Shown: piece after piece, positions 49,307-56,050 of the stretch | Position numbering within the stretch: position 1 is the first letter of the stretch | Layout: each line of letters begins with the position of its first letter | DNA from: Candidatus Sulfotelmatobacter sp. | Lineage (GTDB): Bacteria; Acidobacteriota; Terriglobia; Terriglobales; Acidobacteriaceae | Assembly (NCBI GenBank): GCA_036500765.1 | Contig: DASYBM010000002.1 | Span: forward strand, 124,001 to 188,000 | Reading direction: 5' to 3' | Length of the DNA stretch: 64,000 nt | Made by a program: the position numbers and the translations under genes | Notes under the pieces: model-generated | What the model saw: the letters and a program-made list of their open reading frames with translations, nothing else | Databases searched by the model: none | What the model was told of the DNA's origin: nothing

Positions 49307-50878
49307 ATGAAAATTCTTTTGTATAACCCCGACAATGGTGTCACCCGCAACTTCATGCCGCACCTGTGGATGTTTCTACTCCAGTCGCTGACTCCGCCTG
49401 GGCATGAGGTGGTGCTGATCGACGGCAATGCCAAGCCGATGGACGAAGTTCAGATCGCGCAATATGTCCGCGACGAGAAAATCGATCTGGTCGGCATTGG
49501 CGCGATGACTCGCATGATCGCCAAGGCCTACAGGATCGCCGACGCGATTCGCGCTACGGGAGTGAAAGTGGTGATGGGCGGGCCGCATGTTACCGAGTTG
49601 GCCGATGAAGCGTTGGGACGTGACGGCGGTCCGCGTCATGCCGATGCTGTGGCTCTGGGCGAAGCCGACGATACCTGGCCGCAGATCGTGAATGACGCCG
49701 CGCGCGGCGAACTCAAGGAAATCTATACGCCGGTCGACGAGACAGGCAAAGAGCGCAAGCCTTCGCTCAAGCAATATCCGGTGATTCCGTGGCAGTCGAT
49801 TGACCTGGCTCAATTCAATCTGGTGCCGAGCGTATTCACGTCGACTCTGCAAAAGGTCGGAGAAGGTTGGGGAACGTTTCGCATTATCCCGGTCGAGTCG
49901 GGAAGAGGGTGTCCCTATGGCTGCGAGTTCTGCACGGTGACGGGATTTTTCGGCGACTCGATTCGCTTTCGTACTAATGAGAGCGTGGTCAATGAGTTGC
50001 TGCTGTTGAAGGCGCGCGCGCGGAAGGAAAAAGGGCAGATCGCGGTATTTTTCATCGACGATAATTTCGCCATCAATGTGAAGCGGACGAAGTCGCTGTT
50101 GAAGGACATTATTGCGGCCGGGGCGCAGGTGCATTGGGTAGCGCAAATCAGCGCCAATCTTTTGCGCGATGAAGAACTGGTCGACCTGATCGCGGCTTCC
50201 GGCGGGAAGTGGGTGTTTATCGGCATGGAGTCGATTGATCCGACGAATCTGAAAGACGTGAACAAGGGATTCAACAAGCCCGGCGAGTATGCCGAGGTGC
50301 TGGAGCGTCTGGCGAAGCGTAACGTGTATGCGATTACGTCGTTTATTTTCGGCATGGATAACGACACGGTTGGCGTGGGGGAGCGGACGCTGTCGCAAGT
50401 GCGCACTTGGCCGCCGGGGTTGCCGATTTTCGGGTTGCTGACCCCGTTGCCGGCGACGCCGCTGTACAAACGGCTCGAAACGGCGGGTCGGCTGACGCGG
50501 GCGAAACATTGGCAGGAGTTTATCCCGTTTGCTATGGCGCATACGCCGCTGAAGATGAGTATCGACGAGGCCCACGCCGAAGTGAAATATGGATGGGCGC
50601 ACGCCTATAGCGCGGAAGCTGTGGCTCATGCCGTCGATTCGCTCGACGATCAACCGCTGGGATATCGCATCAACATCTTGATTGCGCGGCTCTGCTTCCG
50701 TGGGATTTATTTCCCCATGATGGGCAAGTTTGCGTGGGTCAGAGTTGTGGCGGAGAATCGGCGCACGATTTTCAAGCTGGTGAAGGAAGCGGTGTTTGGG
50801 CGCAAGGCGCGGCCGCGGAGGCCTGAGGGTGCGTATGTTGAGGCGGCTACGGAGACGCAGGTCAGCGCTGGTGATTGA
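49307..50878 (+). CDS. B12-binding-domain radical SAM protein
   Basis: 523 aa, ATG with a very strong GAGGAGGGAG site; an earlier in-frame start at 49247 is less likely. Residues about 1-140 are a cobalamin-binding-type Rossmann domain (MKILLYNPDNG, KVVMGGPHVT) without the DxHxxG His, as in many class B radical SAM enzymes. The cluster motif is C202-x3-C206-x2-C209 (GRGCPYGCEFC), within a TIM-barrel core. Class B enzymes methylate or rearrange unactivated carbons of lipids, porphyrin-like rings or natural products. The convergent neighbour is hemG (17-bp overlap of 3' ends) and then hemE, so a tetrapyrrole role is possible but unproven. Hopanoid or other lipid modification is an alternative. 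Confidence 0.88.
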   Translation: MKILLYNPDNGVTRNFMPHLWMFLLQSLTPPGHEVVLIDGNAKPMDEVQIAQYVRDEKIDLVGIGAMTRMIAKAYRIADAIRATGVKVVMGGPHVTELADEALGRDGGPRHADAVALGEADDTWPQIVNDAARGELKEIYTPVDETGKERKPSLKQYPVIPWQSIDLAQFNLVPSVFTSTLQKVGEGWGTFRIIPVESGRGCPYGCEFCTVTGFFGDSIRFRTNESVVNELLLLKARARKEKGQIAVFFIDDNFAINVKRTKSLLKDIIAAGAQVHWVAQISANLLRDEELVDLIAASGGKWVFIGMESIDPTNLKDVNKGFNKPGEYAEVLERLAKRNVYAITSFIFGMDNDTVGVGERTLSQVRTWPPGLPIFGLLTPLPATPLYKRLETAGRLTRAKHWQEFIPFAMAHTPLKMSIDEAHAEVKYGWAHAYSAEAVAHAVDSLDDQPLGYRINILIARLCFRGIYFPMMGKFAWVRVVAENRRTIFKLVKEAVFGRKARPRRPEGAYVEAATETQVSAGD

Positions 50879-52289
50879 GGTTGATGGTCTCCGCTAACAG
50901 GTTTTTGACCGCTTCGCTGCCCGAGCGGATACAATCTGGCACGCCGATGCCGCGGAACGCGTTTCCCGCTAGCGCGATGCCGGGCAACTGCTGGCGGAGG
51001 TTTTCGATGCGGTCGAGGCGATCGAGATGGCCTACGCCGTATTGCGCCATGGCGGACTTCCATTTGTAAACGCGAGCGAAGAGCGGCTCGGCGCGCAGGC
51101 CGAGAATTTGTTGCAGTTCGTTGCGAACAATGCCGACGATCCGATCGTCGGGGAGCGCCCAAACGTTCTCGGCATTTTTCCCCGCGAAAAAACAACGCAG
51201 CAGAGCGCGGTCGTCGGGAGCGCGATGGGGAAATTTTTTGTGGACGAAAGTTGCGGCCAGCAGGCGTTTGCCTTCGCTGCGCGGCACGAGGAATCCAAAG
51301 CCGGGCGGCAGCGTCTGGCGGACCTGGTGATCGTAGCCGAGGGCCACCGTGATCGATGAAGTGTATTGGATGGCGTCGAGTTCGGCGGAGAGCTCGGGAC
51401 TGGCAATGCGCAGCACCTGGGCCGCTGCGGGCGCGGGAAGCGCGATGATGATGGCGTCGAATTGGTCTGATTTCATTCCCGCGGAAACGACCCAACTGTC
51501 GGCCTCGCGTTGAATGGTTTCTACCGGAGCGCTGGTGAATAGGGAGTCCGGCGTCAGGCGCGACACTACCGTCTCCGGCAGTTGCTGCATGCCGTTCTTG
51601 AGTGACGTGAAGAGCGGCGGAGTTGGCTTGCCCGGTCGGTTCGACATTTTCTTTCGTGCGGCGAGAATGGCGCGGCCGAGACTTCCGTGGGTGCGCTCCA
51701 TCTCAACGAATCGCGGGAGAACGGCGCGCACGCTGAGGTTGGCGGCTTCTCCGCCGTAGATGCCGGAGAGCAGCGGGTCGGCGAGGCGGTCGATCATTTC
51801 AGAACCATAGTGGCGCTCGACAAAGGCGGCGACGGATTCATCATGATCTTCCTTGCGCATTCCGCCGCGCGGCGGGTGGAACAGCTCTTGCGCCATGCGC
51901 AGCTTGGTCTTCCACGAAAAAAGAGGAGAGAGACCGGTCGGCAGAATTTTCGTGGGGACCATAAACATCAGCCCATCGGGCATTACGACGAGGCGACCAT
52001 TGGTCAGAATGTATGTCTTACGGTCGGCATCGTTGGAGGCGATGAGTTGCTCGCCCAAGCCTAACGCGCGGCAGAGATCGCTGGCCCAAGGCTTTTCGGT
52101 GAGGAAGGAATCGGGACCGGCCTCGACGATGCATCTGTCAACGTAGTCGCTGCGCAGCACGCCGCCGAGACGCGGGGAAGATTCGTAGAGAATGTATTCG
52201 ACATCGGCACCGGCGCGGCGTCGCTCTTCAAGGGCGTATGCGGCGGCGAGGCCGGAGATGCCTCCGCCGATGATGGCGATGCGGGTCAC
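50862..52289 (-). CDS. hemG: protoporphyrinogen oxidase (HemY/HemG flavoprotein type)
   Basis: 475-aa FAD enzyme oxidising (copro)protoporphyrinogen IX late in haem synthesis. It begins VTRIAIIGGGISGLAAAYAL (GTG start; GxGxxG dinucleotide motif); the long upstream frame is not homologous. Other features: RLGGVLRSDYVDRCIVEAGPDS, a mid-domain substrate region, and the C-terminal GIALAGNAFRGIGVPDCIRSG flavin motif. Its start overlaps the hemE stop by 4 bp (GTGA). The last 17 bp overlap the convergent radical SAM gene. Confidence 0.92.
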   Translation of the reverse strand: MTRIAIIGGGISGLAAAYALEERRRAGADVEYILYESSPRLGGVLRSDYVDRCIVEAGPDSFLTEKPWASDLCRALGLGEQLIASNDADRKTYILTNGRLVVMPDGLMFMVPTKILPTGLSPLFSWKTKLRMAQELFHPPRGGMRKEDHDESVAAFVERHYGSEMIDRLADPLLSGIYGGEAANLSVRAVLPRFVEMERTHGSLGRAILAARKKMSNRPGKPTPPLFTSLKNGMQQLPETVVSRLTPDSLFTSAPVETIQREADSWVVSAGMKSDQFDAIIIALPAPAAAQVLRIASPELSAELDAIQYTSSITVALGYDHQVRQTLPPGFGFLVPRSEGKRLLAATFVHKKFPHRAPDDRALLRCFFAGKNAENVWALPDDRIVGIVRNELQQILGLRAEPLFARVYKWKSAMAQYGVGHLDRLDRIENLRQQLPGIALAGNAFRGIGVPDCIRSGSEAVKNLLAETINLNHQR

Positions 52290-53377
52290 GGCTTCCGGCT
52301 TCCGGCTTTCGGCTCTCGGCTTCGGGAAATCGGATTGTGGGGGCTGGACGCCGCATAATCCTGCACGAAGCGCGCGAGATTTCTCACATTCTCTACCGGC
52401 GTTTCGGGCAGGATGCCGTGGCCGAGGTTGAAGATGTGCCCAGGGCGTCCGGCGGCGCGGCGGAGAATGTTTTCCGCCCGCGATTTCAATTCCTTCCAGC
52501 CGGCGAAGAGCAGCACGGGATCGAGGTTGCCCTGCACGGCGCATTGATGATCAAGGCGCGCCCAGCCTTCGTCGAGCGGAATGCGCCAGTCGAGTCCGAT
52601 GACGTCGGCTCCGGTTTCTTTCATGGCTGGCAGCAGGGTAGCGCTGTCGGTGCCGAAATAAATAATCGGCGCGCCGGTTGTCTGCAACTGCTTCACCATG
52701 CCGGTGACGTGGGGAAGAACGTAGCGGCGATAGTCTTCCACGCTCAGGCATCCAACCCAGCTATCGAAAATCTGGATGACGTCGGCGCCAGCACGCACTT
52801 GCTCGGAGGCGTAAGTTGTCGTCACCGCGACCAGTTTTGCCATCAAGACATCCCAGTCGGCGGGGGAGTTGTACATCATTTTCTTGGCGTGAATATAGTT
52901 GCGCGAGCTGCCGCCTTCGATCATGTAGCTGGCGAGAGTGAAGGGAGCGCCGCAGAATCCGATCACGGGCAGGCGGTCGCCGAAATGTTTCGCGACCAGG
53001 CCTACAGCTTCGGAAACATAACCCAACTCGGCAGCACGATCGGTGCGCAGATTCGCGATGTGTTCCATTGTGCGAACCGGCTTCTCGATGATCGGACCCT
53101 CGCCGGCGGAAAAATGAAAAGGCAGGCCCATGACTTCGAGGGGAAGCAGGAGGTCGGCGAAAATAATGGCGGCGTCGACTCTGAGGAATTCCGCGGCGGC
53201 GATGGTGACTTCGGCGGCGAGCGCGGGCTTCTTGCAGATTTCGAGCAGCGAATGTTGCTTGCGAACCGCACGATACTCGGGCATGTAGCGCCCCGCCTGG
53301 CGCATGAACCACACCGGTGTGCGGTCAACAGGTTGGGACTTGCAGGCGCGCACGAAATTGGAATTGGGAGCCGACAT
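52286..53377 (-). CDS. hemE: uroporphyrinogen decarboxylase
   Basis: 363 aa, converts uroporphyrinogen III to coproporphyrinogen III in the cytoplasm. Signatures: PVWFMRQAGRYMPEYR, IGFCGAPFTLASYMIEGG, the active-site Asp in FADLLLPLE, and VQGNLDPVLL. First gene of the hemE-hemG pair. The last 16 residues (ISRSREPKAGSRKP) come from a degenerate tandem of CCGAAAG/CCGGAAG units at 52290-52330 and look like a recent repeat-derived tail. Confidence 0.95.
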   Translation of the reverse strand: MSAPNSNFVRACKSQPVDRTPVWFMRQAGRYMPEYRAVRKQHSLLEICKKPALAAEVTIAAAEFLRVDAAIIFADLLLPLEVMGLPFHFSAGEGPIIEKPVRTMEHIANLRTDRAAELGYVSEAVGLVAKHFGDRLPVIGFCGAPFTLASYMIEGGSSRNYIHAKKMMYNSPADWDVLMAKLVAVTTTYASEQVRAGADVIQIFDSWVGCLSVEDYRRYVLPHVTGMVKQLQTTGAPIIYFGTDSATLLPAMKETGADVIGLDWRIPLDEGWARLDHQCAVQGNLDPVLLFAGWKELKSRAENILRRAAGRPGHIFNLGHGILPETPVENVRNLARFVQDYAASSPHNPISRSREPKAGSRKP

Positions 53378-53493: not shown

Positions 53494-54813
53494 ATGGGCT
53501 ACAGAGCGTTTGTGTTGGCTAGTCAGGCGGGACTGGCGATCATTCTTTTCGGGGCTGCATTTCAGAATCCGGGAACATCTGCGCCGCCTACATTTTATAA
53601 AGACGTGTTGCCAATTTTGCAGAATCATTGCCAGAGTTGTCATCGTCCGGGCGAAGTCGCGCCCATGCCGCTGGTGACTTATGAGCAGACGCGGCCGTGG
53701 GCTGCGGCGATGGCGCATGCGGTCGAGATGAAGATGATGCCGCCCTGGTTTGCCGATCCGCGGTACGGGCACTTTGCCAATGATGCATCGTTGACTGAAC
53801 GGCAGATTGCGACGATGGTCGCGTGGTCCGCGGCGGGAGCGCCGGCGGGCGATCCGCACGATGCGCCTGGGGCGCGAAATTGGGTTGAGGGATGGAATAT
53901 CCCGCGGCCCGATGTCGTGGTGAAGATGCCGAAGGCGGTTGAAATTCCGTCGCGCGGTGAGATCGAATATACGTACGAAATTGTGCCGACGCATTTTGCC
54001 CAGGACCGTTGGGTGCAGATGTCGGAATTCCGGCCGGGGAGTCCGGCGCATGTGCATCACGCGGTGGTTTATATTCGTCCGCCGAACTCGGAATGGTTGC
54101 GGCATGCGCCGATAGGCGAGCCTTTCACGGCGTCGACGCTGGGCGATCCGCTGGAGCGGCGCGAGGCGCATGAGACCACCAGCGACCTGTTGCTGGTATA
54201 TGCGCCGGGAAGTTCGCCAGACGAGTGGCCGGACGGGATGGCGAAGTTCGTGCCTGCGGGAGCGGACTTAGTATTCCAGATGCACTACACAACCAATGGA
54301 TCGGCAGATAAGGACCAGACCAGCATCGGGCTGGTGTTTGCGAAGGTACCCCCAAAGCAGAAGGTAATCACGCTGCAATTAAATAATCATGCGCTGATCA
54401 TTCCGCCCGGAGCGGACGACTTTCGCGTGGACGTGCAAGGCACGCTGCCGAACGATGCGACTTTGCTAAGCCTGTTTCCGCATATGCATCTGCGCGGGAA
54501 GCGCTTCGAATACGATATTGTGCACGATGACGGCAGCGTGGAGGTTTTGCTGCGAGTGAATTATCACTTTCACTGGCAGTTGAGTTACAAACTGGCCGAG
54601 CCGCGGTTTTTGAAAGCGGGTACGAAGCTGCGGGCGATTGCGTGGTACGACAATTCGAAAAATAATCCGCACAATCCCGATCCGGAGAAAACGGTGACGT
54701 GGGGCGATCAGACTTCCGATGAGATGATGGTGGGATTTTTCGACGTGGCGATACCGGCAGGGATGGATAAATGGAAATTCTTCGAGCGGCATCAGGAAGC
54801 GAAATCGCAATAG
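53494..54813 (+). CDS. cytochrome c fused to copper type II monooxygenase-like domain
   Basis: 439 aa with a signal peptide (about 1-24). The N-terminal haem site is C46-x2-C49-H50 (CQSCHRPGEVAPMPL). The C-terminal part has the pattern of ascorbate-dependent copper monooxygenases (PHM/DBM type): His188-His189 (HVHHAVVY) and His264 (QMHYTT) for one copper, and His330-x-His332 (PHMHLRG) plus Met411 or Met412 (SDEMM) for the other. Thus all six expected ligands are visible. Members of this fusion family are common in Acidobacteriota and are often given generic names; the substrate is unknown. Followed 43 bp later by another c cytochrome. Confidence 0.85.
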   Translation: MGYRAFVLASQAGLAIILFGAAFQNPGTSAPPTFYKDVLPILQNHCQSCHRPGEVAPMPLVTYEQTRPWAAAMAHAVEMKMMPPWFADPRYGHFANDASLTERQIATMVAWSAAGAPAGDPHDAPGARNWVEGWNIPRPDVVVKMPKAVEIPSRGEIEYTYEIVPTHFAQDRWVQMSEFRPGSPAHVHHAVVYIRPPNSEWLRHAPIGEPFTASTLGDPLERREAHETTSDLLLVYAPGSSPDEWPDGMAKFVPAGADLVFQMHYTTNGSADKDQTSIGLVFAKVPPKQKVITLQLNNHALIIPPGADDFRVDVQGTLPNDATLLSLFPHMHLRGKRFEYDIVHDDGSVEVLLRVNYHFHWQLSYKLAEPRFLKAGTKLRAIAWYDNSKNNPHNPDPEKTVTWGDQTSDEMMVGFFDVAIPAGMDKWKFFERHQEAKSQ

Positions 54814-54856
54814 AATCGCGGTACTCTAGGGCTGTAATTCCAATTGAGGGGAATTG

Positions 54857-56050
54857 ATGAACGCAAAACAAATCGTTCTGGCGTGTAGTGTGCTTCTTGT
54901 GGCAACTGGATTCGCAACATTGGGGACTCGGGCTCAATCGGCGCACGACGCCACTCAGGGCCAGGCTCCCACTCAAGCTGCGGCGCCGAAGAAGGCTGAG
55001 GAGCAGTTCAAGAATATTCAGGTGCTGAAGGGAATTCCTGCGGATCAACTCATTCCTACGATGGAGTTCATCCGGGCGTCACTGGGCGTCGGCTGCGAGT
55101 ATTGCCACGAGCATGACGCGTTCGATAAGGACGACAAGAAGCCCAAGCAGATTGCGCGCAAAATGATGGAGATGATGATTGCCATCAATGCGGATAATTT
55201 CGACGGGCATCGCATGGTTACTTGCAATTCCTGTCACAACGGTAATGCGAAACCGCAGTCGATTCCGGCAGTGATGGGCGAGGAGCCGAAAGAATCGGCG
55301 GGCGGAGGCATGATGAATGCGCCCCCAATGGGCGGGCCCGGCGGGTCAGCCCCCGCCGATGCGAAAGGAAATACCGCTGTGTCAGCCGACCAACTGCTCG
55401 ATAAATATGTGCAGGCTGCGGGCGGAGCGGCGGCGATCGACAAGGTTACCAGCCGCATCATGAAGGGTACGATCGACTTTGGCGGAAAGTCGTTCCCCAT
55501 AGATATTTATGGGAAGGATCCGGACGAGCGGATATCGTTCACTCACATGCCTGAAGGCGACAGTATCACTGCCTTTAACGGGCGCGAGGGATGGCTGGCG
55601 TCGCCGGGGCGTCCAGGGATCCGCGAAATGCACGGAAGCGAACTAGACGCGGCGTCGATGGACGCCGACGTGCAGTTGGCGACGCACCTGAAGGGGATGT
55701 TCAGCGAATTGCAGGCGCAAGGGACGGAGAAAGTTGGCGACCGCAAAGCCTACGTGGTGGTCGGCATGCGCACCGGGAATACTCCGATCCGGTTGTATTT
55801 CGACGAACAATCGGGATTGCTGGTGCGGCTGGTGCGGTTCGCGGACACCGCGCTGGGCTGGCTACCGACGCAGATCGATTACGCCGATTACCGCGACGCG
55901 AATGGCGTGAAGATTCCCTATCGCTGGACGCTGGCGCGGCCGAGTGGACGATTCACGATCCAAGTGAGCGACGTGAAGCAGAATGTTCCCGTGGAGGACG
56001 CAAAATTCGTCAAGCCTGCCGCGGAGCAGCCCAAAGCGCCCAGCAAGTAA
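54857..56050 (+). CDS. di-haem cytochrome of reaction-centre cytochrome type with C-terminal lipoprotein-like domain
   Basis: 397 aa, ATG preceded by GAGGGGAATTG. Signal peptide (about 1-27), then a CytoC_RC-like domain (KNIQVLKGIPADQLIPTMEFI) with two haem sites, C80-EY-C83-H84 and C123-NS-C126-H127. Residues about 150-185 are a Gly/Pro/Met linker. The C-terminal half (QLLDKYVQAAGGAAAIDKVTSR onward) resembles LolA/outer-membrane-lipoprotein-sorting beta sheets. There are no photosynthesis genes here, so the name reflects homology only; electron transfer in the periplasm is the safe statement. Likely co-transcribed with the previous cytochrome. Confidence 0.88.
   Translation: MNAKQIVLACSVLLVATGFATLGTRAQSAHDATQGQAPTQAAAPKKAEEQFKNIQVLKGIPADQLIPTMEFIRASLGVGCEYCHEHDAFDKDDKKPKQIARKMMEMMIAINADNFDGHRMVTCNSCHNGNAKPQSIPAVMGEEPKESAGGGMMNAPPMGGPGGSAPADAKGNTAVSADQLLDKYVQAAGGAAAIDKVTSRIMKGTIDFGGKSFPIDIYGKDPDERISFTHMPEGDSITAFNGREGWLASPGRPGIREMHGSELDAASMDADVQLATHLKGMFSELQAQGTEKVGDRKAYVVVGMRTGNTPIRLYFDEQSGLLVRLVRFADTALGWLPTQIDYADYRDANGVKIPYRWTLARPSGRFTIQVSDVKQNVPVEDAKFVKPAAEQPKAPSK

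Follow-up and report, generated by a model that had tools for sequence, protein, structure and literature searches.

The window analysed here is a stretch of 64,000 nucleotides from a Candidatus Sulfotelmatobacter genome (5.04 Mb). Two of its genes, 43 bases apart on one strand, encode a cytochrome c fused to a PHM/DBM-like copper core and an RC-type cytochrome (Table 1), and from this spacing the two are possibly co-transcribed in the window. Divergent from the fusion gene run hemE (URO-D), its nearest neighbour on that side at a gap of 116 bases, and a gene for a flavin amine-oxidoreductase (together 50862-53377); we read the oxidoreductase behind hemE as one of the protoporphyrinogen-oxidase kind. 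The order hemE, flavin amine-oxidoreductase, fusion gene recurs, by eye, in three related loci (L006, L008 and L013). No conserved partner gene that might serve as a clue to the substrate was seen in 20 loci of 7.5 to 14.7 kb, whose neighbouring genes we assessed by eye, going by the first residues of each. The relatives closest to the fusion protein reach 88% identity and belong to Acidobacteria MAGs; many of these are assigned to Candidatus Sulfotelmatobacter, Terriglobia or Acidobacteriaceae. Plasmid records gave no match.

Table 1. Features of the fusion gene and the adjoining cytochrome gene, in window coordinates; residue numbers are those of the encoded proteins.
Feature	Position	Strand	Basis
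Cytochrome c - PHM/DBM-like copper monooxygenase fusion	53494..54813	+	ORF, 439 aa, ATG start, signal-peptide-like N-terminus
Mono-haem c domain, ~residues 31-119, C46xxC49H50 + Met82 in MPPW	53584..53850	+	motif, conservation
PHM-like two-lobed copper core, ~residues 137-421	53902..54756	+	VIA-align to 5wja_D; Pfam Cu2_monoox_C 298-415
CuH ligands His188-His189 (rat PHM H107, H108)	54055..54060	+	hhalign; H188 128/128, H189 127/128
CuH ligand His264 (PHM H172)	54283..54285	+	hhalign; 128/128
CuM ligands His330, His332 (PHM H242, H244)	54481..54489	+	hhalign; 128/128 each
CuM ligand Met411 (PHM M314)	54724..54726	+	hhalign; 123/124 aligned residues
Di-haem RC-type (non-phototrophic) cytochrome fused to LolA-like domain	54857..56050	+	ATG 54857, 397 aa, Pfam/NCBIfam, model

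The original prediction held that a single chain combines a CxxCH haem site with all six copper ligands expected of a PHM/DBM enzyme, and this was borne out by the residues of the reading frame, a profile alignment, the predicted fold and conservation across 128 members. The frame carries histidines at 188, 189, 264, 330 and 332 and methionines at 411 and 412, while its only two cysteines both lie inside the single CxxCH at residue 46. The N-terminus is hydrophobic and has a predicted helix at residues 4-18 (AF2 model), which suggests that the protein is probably exported to the periplasm. With its CxxCH and a distal Met, the haem domain looks like a class I-like mono-haem cytochrome c, in which Met82 would be the axial ligand. 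The isolated domain scored 17.9 bits against Pfam Cytochrome_CBB3 (cut-off 27) and no Pfam cytochrome model exceeded its cut-off on the full-length window protein; the relative L100 does pass the Cytochrom_C cut-off (22.2 versus 21.3). The window genome also holds three matches over cut-off to Cytochrom_C_asm, a family of proteins of cytochrome c assembly.

The copper core was recognised by its predicted fold. The AF2 model of the fusion protein, built from a 20-sequence alignment, reached a mean pLDDT of 85.9 and a pTM of 0.82, and its first 31 Foldseek matches in the PDB were all PHM or DBH, with rat PHM the best (E 6.3e-15). VIA-align superposed model residues 137-439 on rat PHM (5wja_D) with a Z of 24.2 (rmsd 2.9, 275 residues aligned) and found the same core in human DBH/DBM (PDB 4zel; Z 23.3, rmsd 3.4, 286 residues), whereas unrelated folds scored Z 9.4 or less, the next being PNGase F at 9.4. 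At the level of profiles, hhalign matched an 88-sequence profile (window included) to rat PHM with a probability of 96.1 (E 2.9e-9) and paired all six copper ligands one-to-one. Because Met411 falls on PHM M314 in this alignment, the earlier doubt as to whether Met411 or Met412 is the ligand is settled in favour of Met411. As to whether a structural prediction brings the ligands together, the support is indirect: the predicted model has the PHM fold, and the gathering of the ligands is read from their one-to-one alignment. Predicted fold, ligand alignment and conservation together establish that the window protein carries the complete PHM/DBM copper ligand set, and the protein would be expected to load both copper and haem.

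In sequence searches, Pfam Cu2_monoox_C (PF03712) scored 22.9 bits on the window protein in hmmscan (cut-off 23) and 25.3, over the cut-off, in the genome-level search. PF01082 was not among the families that hmmscan listed for the window protein; at E <= 0.01 it matched 7 of the 32 acidobacterial members scanned and 4 of the 17 from planctomycetes. Pfam already has a copper domain model that picks up these proteins, and the fusion may well be visible in database annotation. Solved PHM/DBM chains were found neither by phmmer with the window protein nor by profile A1 (20 sequences chosen from a set without L052, L057 and L058, whose match is in two pieces); the two weak matches of A1 to solved structures (E 0.29 and 0.4) aligned over the haem region.

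Haem residues and copper ligands are near-invariant together in 128 distinct members, window included, reaching down to about 30% identity. C46, H50 and M82 each occur in 126 of the 127 members with a residue at that position, C49 occurs in all 127, and L153 is the single member that departs from the haem set. L153 was considered as a haem-less natural version and rejected, since CASCHRPGEV is encoded in a different frame just upstream, which indicates a frameshift and not a haem-less design. Among the copper ligands, the one departure at H189 (n=128) is a tyrosine in L039, a natural variant at a CuH histidine, and the exception at M411 is a threonine in L138, whose frame holds stops. A search that used only the Pfam copper domain, and so took no account of haem, found matches in 47 of the 297 Acidobacteriota genomes; an in-frame CxxCH lies ahead of the copper core in 29 of the 30 loci listed from it, L153 again being the exception. 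Within the range sampled, the haem domain is therefore a fixed component of this branch.

Members were gathered as follows. From contigs we took chains of more than 400 residues, which leaves out L020, L054-L056, L061, L063 and L064, and from genomes we took loci at E < 1e-90 whatever their length. For the 128-member set the added chains had at least 400 residues, and eight duplicates were dropped together with L098 and L099, which repeat the paralogue and the window. A 290-residue piece of L066, behind an in-frame stop, was included and its 171-residue first piece excluded, hence the one gap in the haem columns (127 rather than 128). Set A2 holds 25 of 27 sequences (without L013 and L052) and set A4 32 of 33 chains (without L153). 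A stop or a match in two pieces occurred in 5 of the 64 loci searched. Broken or stop-containing fusion copies are L020, L052, L053 (stop near the C-terminus), L057, L058 and G080:C1:32039-33307, and a genome of the window's genus has an in-frame TAG in its fusion gene, so that some of these copies may be decaying or misassembled.

The family extends well beyond the window's genus. In the window's phylum the fusion profile matched 71 of 297 genomes at E <= 1e-3, three of these matches being weak, and in the window's class it matched 148 of 299 at E <= 1e-30. Genome G299 is a Gemmataceae MAG and its phylum is thus Planctomycetota, where 74 of 149 genomes matched at E <= 1e-3; 57 of them reached E <= 1e-30, and among the remainder and the weaker matches a few cover the cytochrome part alone. 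Five or more matches, among which pieces may be counted, were present in 36 of the 71 phylum genomes. At E <= 0.01, the 32 acidobacterial members scanned, which had themselves been collected via Cu2_monoox_C, comprised 32 with that domain, 26 with Cytochrome_CBB3, 7 with the PHM N-terminal domain and 2 with TPR repeats; of 17 planctomycete members, 16 have Cu2_monoox_C and 11 an AhpC-TSA/redoxin domain. Acidobacteriota and Planctomycetota thus share a large haem-fused branch of the PHM/DBM superfamily, some members of which carry an additional redoxin or TPR domain.

With PHM (rat; PDB 5wja, 1phm) the fusion protein shares the two-lobed fold, the six copper ligands and the equivalents of two glutamines, Q272 (Q362 here, 128 of 128 members) and Q170 (Q262, 111 of 128; hhalign). 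Identity between the two is 18%, and the N-terminal haem c domain belongs to the fusion protein. They also part at R240, N316 and Y318 of PHM, which we take to be its contacts with the peptide carboxylate: hhalign aligns these with F328, V413 and F415 of the window protein, and among the 128 members position 413 is mostly V, I or L and position 415 is F in 87, W in 15 and Y in 15. With the carboxylate contacts replaced, a C-terminal peptidylglycine would not be expected as substrate and a peptide-amidating role seems unlikely; PHM proper was rejected as an identity for the protein on this ground. The family is a haem-fused bacterial branch of the PHM/DBM superfamily and not a PHM. The PHM core also has structural disulfides, which must be missing from the window protein since its copper core contains no cysteine, as is the case in 81 of the 128 members (window included). 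Among the near-invariant core residues, Q362 and Y365 correspond to PHM Q272 and Y275, while W361, D386, N387 and S388 align to different residues in PHM and N391, N394 and P395 fall in a gap; these seven are family-specific and thus mark places in which to seek the substrate pocket.

In DBH a DOMON domain precedes the copper core. That domain shares the fold of the CDH cytochrome domain, and the portion of the source available describes no haem in it (PMC4846438). The N-terminal module of the fusion protein, unlike DOMON, is a c-type haem domain, and the families listed for the window protein do not include DOMON.

The neighbouring gene encodes an RC-type di-haem cytochrome, as had been predicted from its sequence: it scored 63 bits against Pfam CytoC_RC (cut-off 22.4) and has two CxxCH motifs, at residues 80 and 123. 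PufC is a tetra-haem chain serving a photosynthetic reaction centre. The neighbour resembles PufC (CytoC_RC) and NF033196 but has two haem motifs in place of four, and in addition a C-terminal LolA-like domain. An identity as a photosynthetic RC cytochrome subunit was rejected, given only two CxxCH motifs, a score of 73.8 bits with NCBIfam PufC (cut-off 150) and one of 76.3 bits, over the cut-off of 70, with the non-phototrophic exception model NF033196 (c_type_nonphoto). Its C-terminal half was modelled as LolA/LolB-like, with pLDDT mostly above 80 and a Z of 18.3 to 3bk5 (rmsd 4.2, 204 residues), while the haem half was modelled poorly (pLDDT mostly below 50). The cytochrome is therefore itself a fusion of a di-haem domain, recognised by sequence profiles, with what the model predicts to be a LolA-like domain; a lipoprotein-carrier fold on a haem protein is odd in itself. 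Its profile matched 206 of 299 class genomes at E <= 1e-3, some of them perhaps through the LolA-like half alone. With this query the window genome gave no second RC-type cytochrome, two weaker matches covering only the LolA-like half.

The proximity of the two genes raises the question of whether this cytochrome is the dedicated electron donor of the fusion protein. Of 62 related loci, 26 have the cytochrome gene downstream of the fusion gene at a distance of no more than about 2.6 kb; in 23, each with at least 3.8 kb of downstream sequence, it was not found, and 13 are too short to judge. The 26 of 49 judgeable loci, like the 43-base spacing in the window, would favour a donor-acceptor pair, but these loci were picked by likeness to the fusion protein and near relatives dominate them. 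Even so, the cytochrome is missing near some close relatives; in L006, whose fusion protein is 85% identical, the flanking genes are kept and no cytochrome was found between them. Where both genes are present, 1.95 to 2.6 kb separate them in 16 of the 26 loci, and the inserted genes differ (an ArnT/PMT-like transferase in L005, an MFS-spermidine synthase fusion in L007). Among the best matches listed for the 299 class genomes, both genes have strong orthologues in 18 genomes, at cut-offs of E <= 1e-120 for the cytochrome and E <= 1e-195 for the monooxygenase. The genes are linked, within about 2.4 kb, in four of these, which are all four of the sampled genomes of the window's genus, and unlinked in 14. 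Thirteen of the 14 have them on different contigs, which is not proof of distance in genomes of tens to hundreds of contigs, so that assembly breaks could hide some links; in G634, by contrast, they lie 1.1 Mb apart on one contig. In at least 12 class genomes, moreover, the cytochrome is present at E <= 1e-120 and the fusion gives no match at E <= 1e-30. Since linkage was seen solely in the window's genus and orthologues elsewhere are unlinked, the neighbourhood is genus-level synteny. Locus synteny and the survey of class genomes thus did not uphold the cytochrome as a general, conserved partner, and we consider a dedicated pair very improbable.

A haem domain that feeds one-electron steps to a copper monooxygenase is familiar from cellobiose dehydrogenase and LPMO. 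These couples provide an analogy in working for the haem and copper of the fusion protein, although they have different folds, use haem b and not haem c, and are separate proteins. We propose, with a probability of roughly 0.6, that the fusion protein is a copper type II monooxygenase, secreted to the periplasm, which receives its electrons through a haem of its own, the covalent haem replacing ascorbate. Domain order, motif, predicted fold, ligands and joint conservation point to this reading; the direction of electron flow and the hydroxylation are what we infer. In DBH and PHM, CuH is the electron-transfer site, CuM binds O2, and two one-electron oxidations of ascorbate supply the electrons (PMC4846438). 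Since ascorbate provides CuH with one-electron steps in these enzymes, a one-electron haem could take its place, and the presence of a fused haem suggests a donor other than ascorbate. A periplasmic one-electron carrier would reduce the N-terminal His/Met c-haem, which would pass electrons singly to CuH (H188, H189 and H264); CuM (H330, H332 and M411) would bind O2 beside the substrate and a C-H bond would be hydroxylated. CuH would deliver the second electron, as it does in PHM and DBM. Haem-driven C-H hydroxylation is made plausible by the conservation of haem and copper ligands together, and appears to be the best reading of the protein.

The protein may instead be a genuine copper monooxygenase that draws on a diffusible reductant or a thiol (redoxin) donor, with the haem domain as a structural part, a docking module or a redox/O2 sensor. 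A redoxin domain accompanies the core in the 11 planctomycete members noted above, and a redoxin gene lies directly upstream of the one paralogue in the window genome, which consists of haem motif, copper core and TPR repeats. The DOMON of DBH, with its CDH cytochrome fold and no haem described in the portion of the source available, likewise suggests that the slot can be non-electronic (PMC4846438). Yet the window protein has no redoxin, nor is redoxin among the 25 of 29 families listed for the 32 acidobacterial members, and the haem-binding Cys, His and Met vary no more than the copper ligands do, a degree of conservation not obviously needed for a purely structural role. We regard this alternative as unlikely.

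Nothing in the sequence determines which way the electrons flow, and mono-haem c domains of periplasmic enzymes are often electron exits. The copper could accordingly oxidise the substrate while the haem carries electrons off, or H2O2, which has been proposed as a co-substrate for some LPMOs, could be the co-substrate here. All six ligands, however, belong to the monooxygenase set, and so does the Met at CuM, where O2 binds; moreover, we know of no PHM/DBM family enzyme that works as a dehydrogenase, so that reverse flow or peroxide use seems a decidedly slim prospect.

If the haem does drive the copper site, the family would offer a direct test of electron entry to CuH on small, probably soluble proteins and would point to unknown C-H hydroxylations in soil bacteria. 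It is tempting to go further and suggest, tentatively and at somewhat less than even odds, that a large class of copper monooxygenases in Acidobacteriota and Planctomycetota has a covalent c-haem as its built-in donor, drawing on the respiratory electron pool instead of ascorbate, and that the DOMON of animal DBH is the analogous slot with its haem role lost. A PHM/DBM core with all its ligands is in any case common in two bacterial phyla, often in several copies per genome and with haem attached, in contrast to the copper-protein table of a 2020 review, where PHM and DBM appear only among eukaryotic families (PMC7435645, Table 3). Among the open-access matches listed, whose titles and abstract openings were covered, no paper on a cytochrome c - PHM fusion was found; this is weak evidence of absence, as subscription papers lay outside its scope.

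Some further arrangements were seen within the branch. One planctomycete chain (L062:4395-6305) contains a redoxin, a haem c domain and the copper core together; by eye its redoxin shows just one CP motif and, close to the end, a GC, and could be a copper-delivery or thiol module. Haem-copper fusion genes stand in tandem in four distant acidobacterial genomes (L118, L119, L120 and L121). Close to the tandem genes in L118-L120 is a gene for a small, secreted-looking protein of about 200 residues with the motif TDPMPPP[ND].DYF.G.W.
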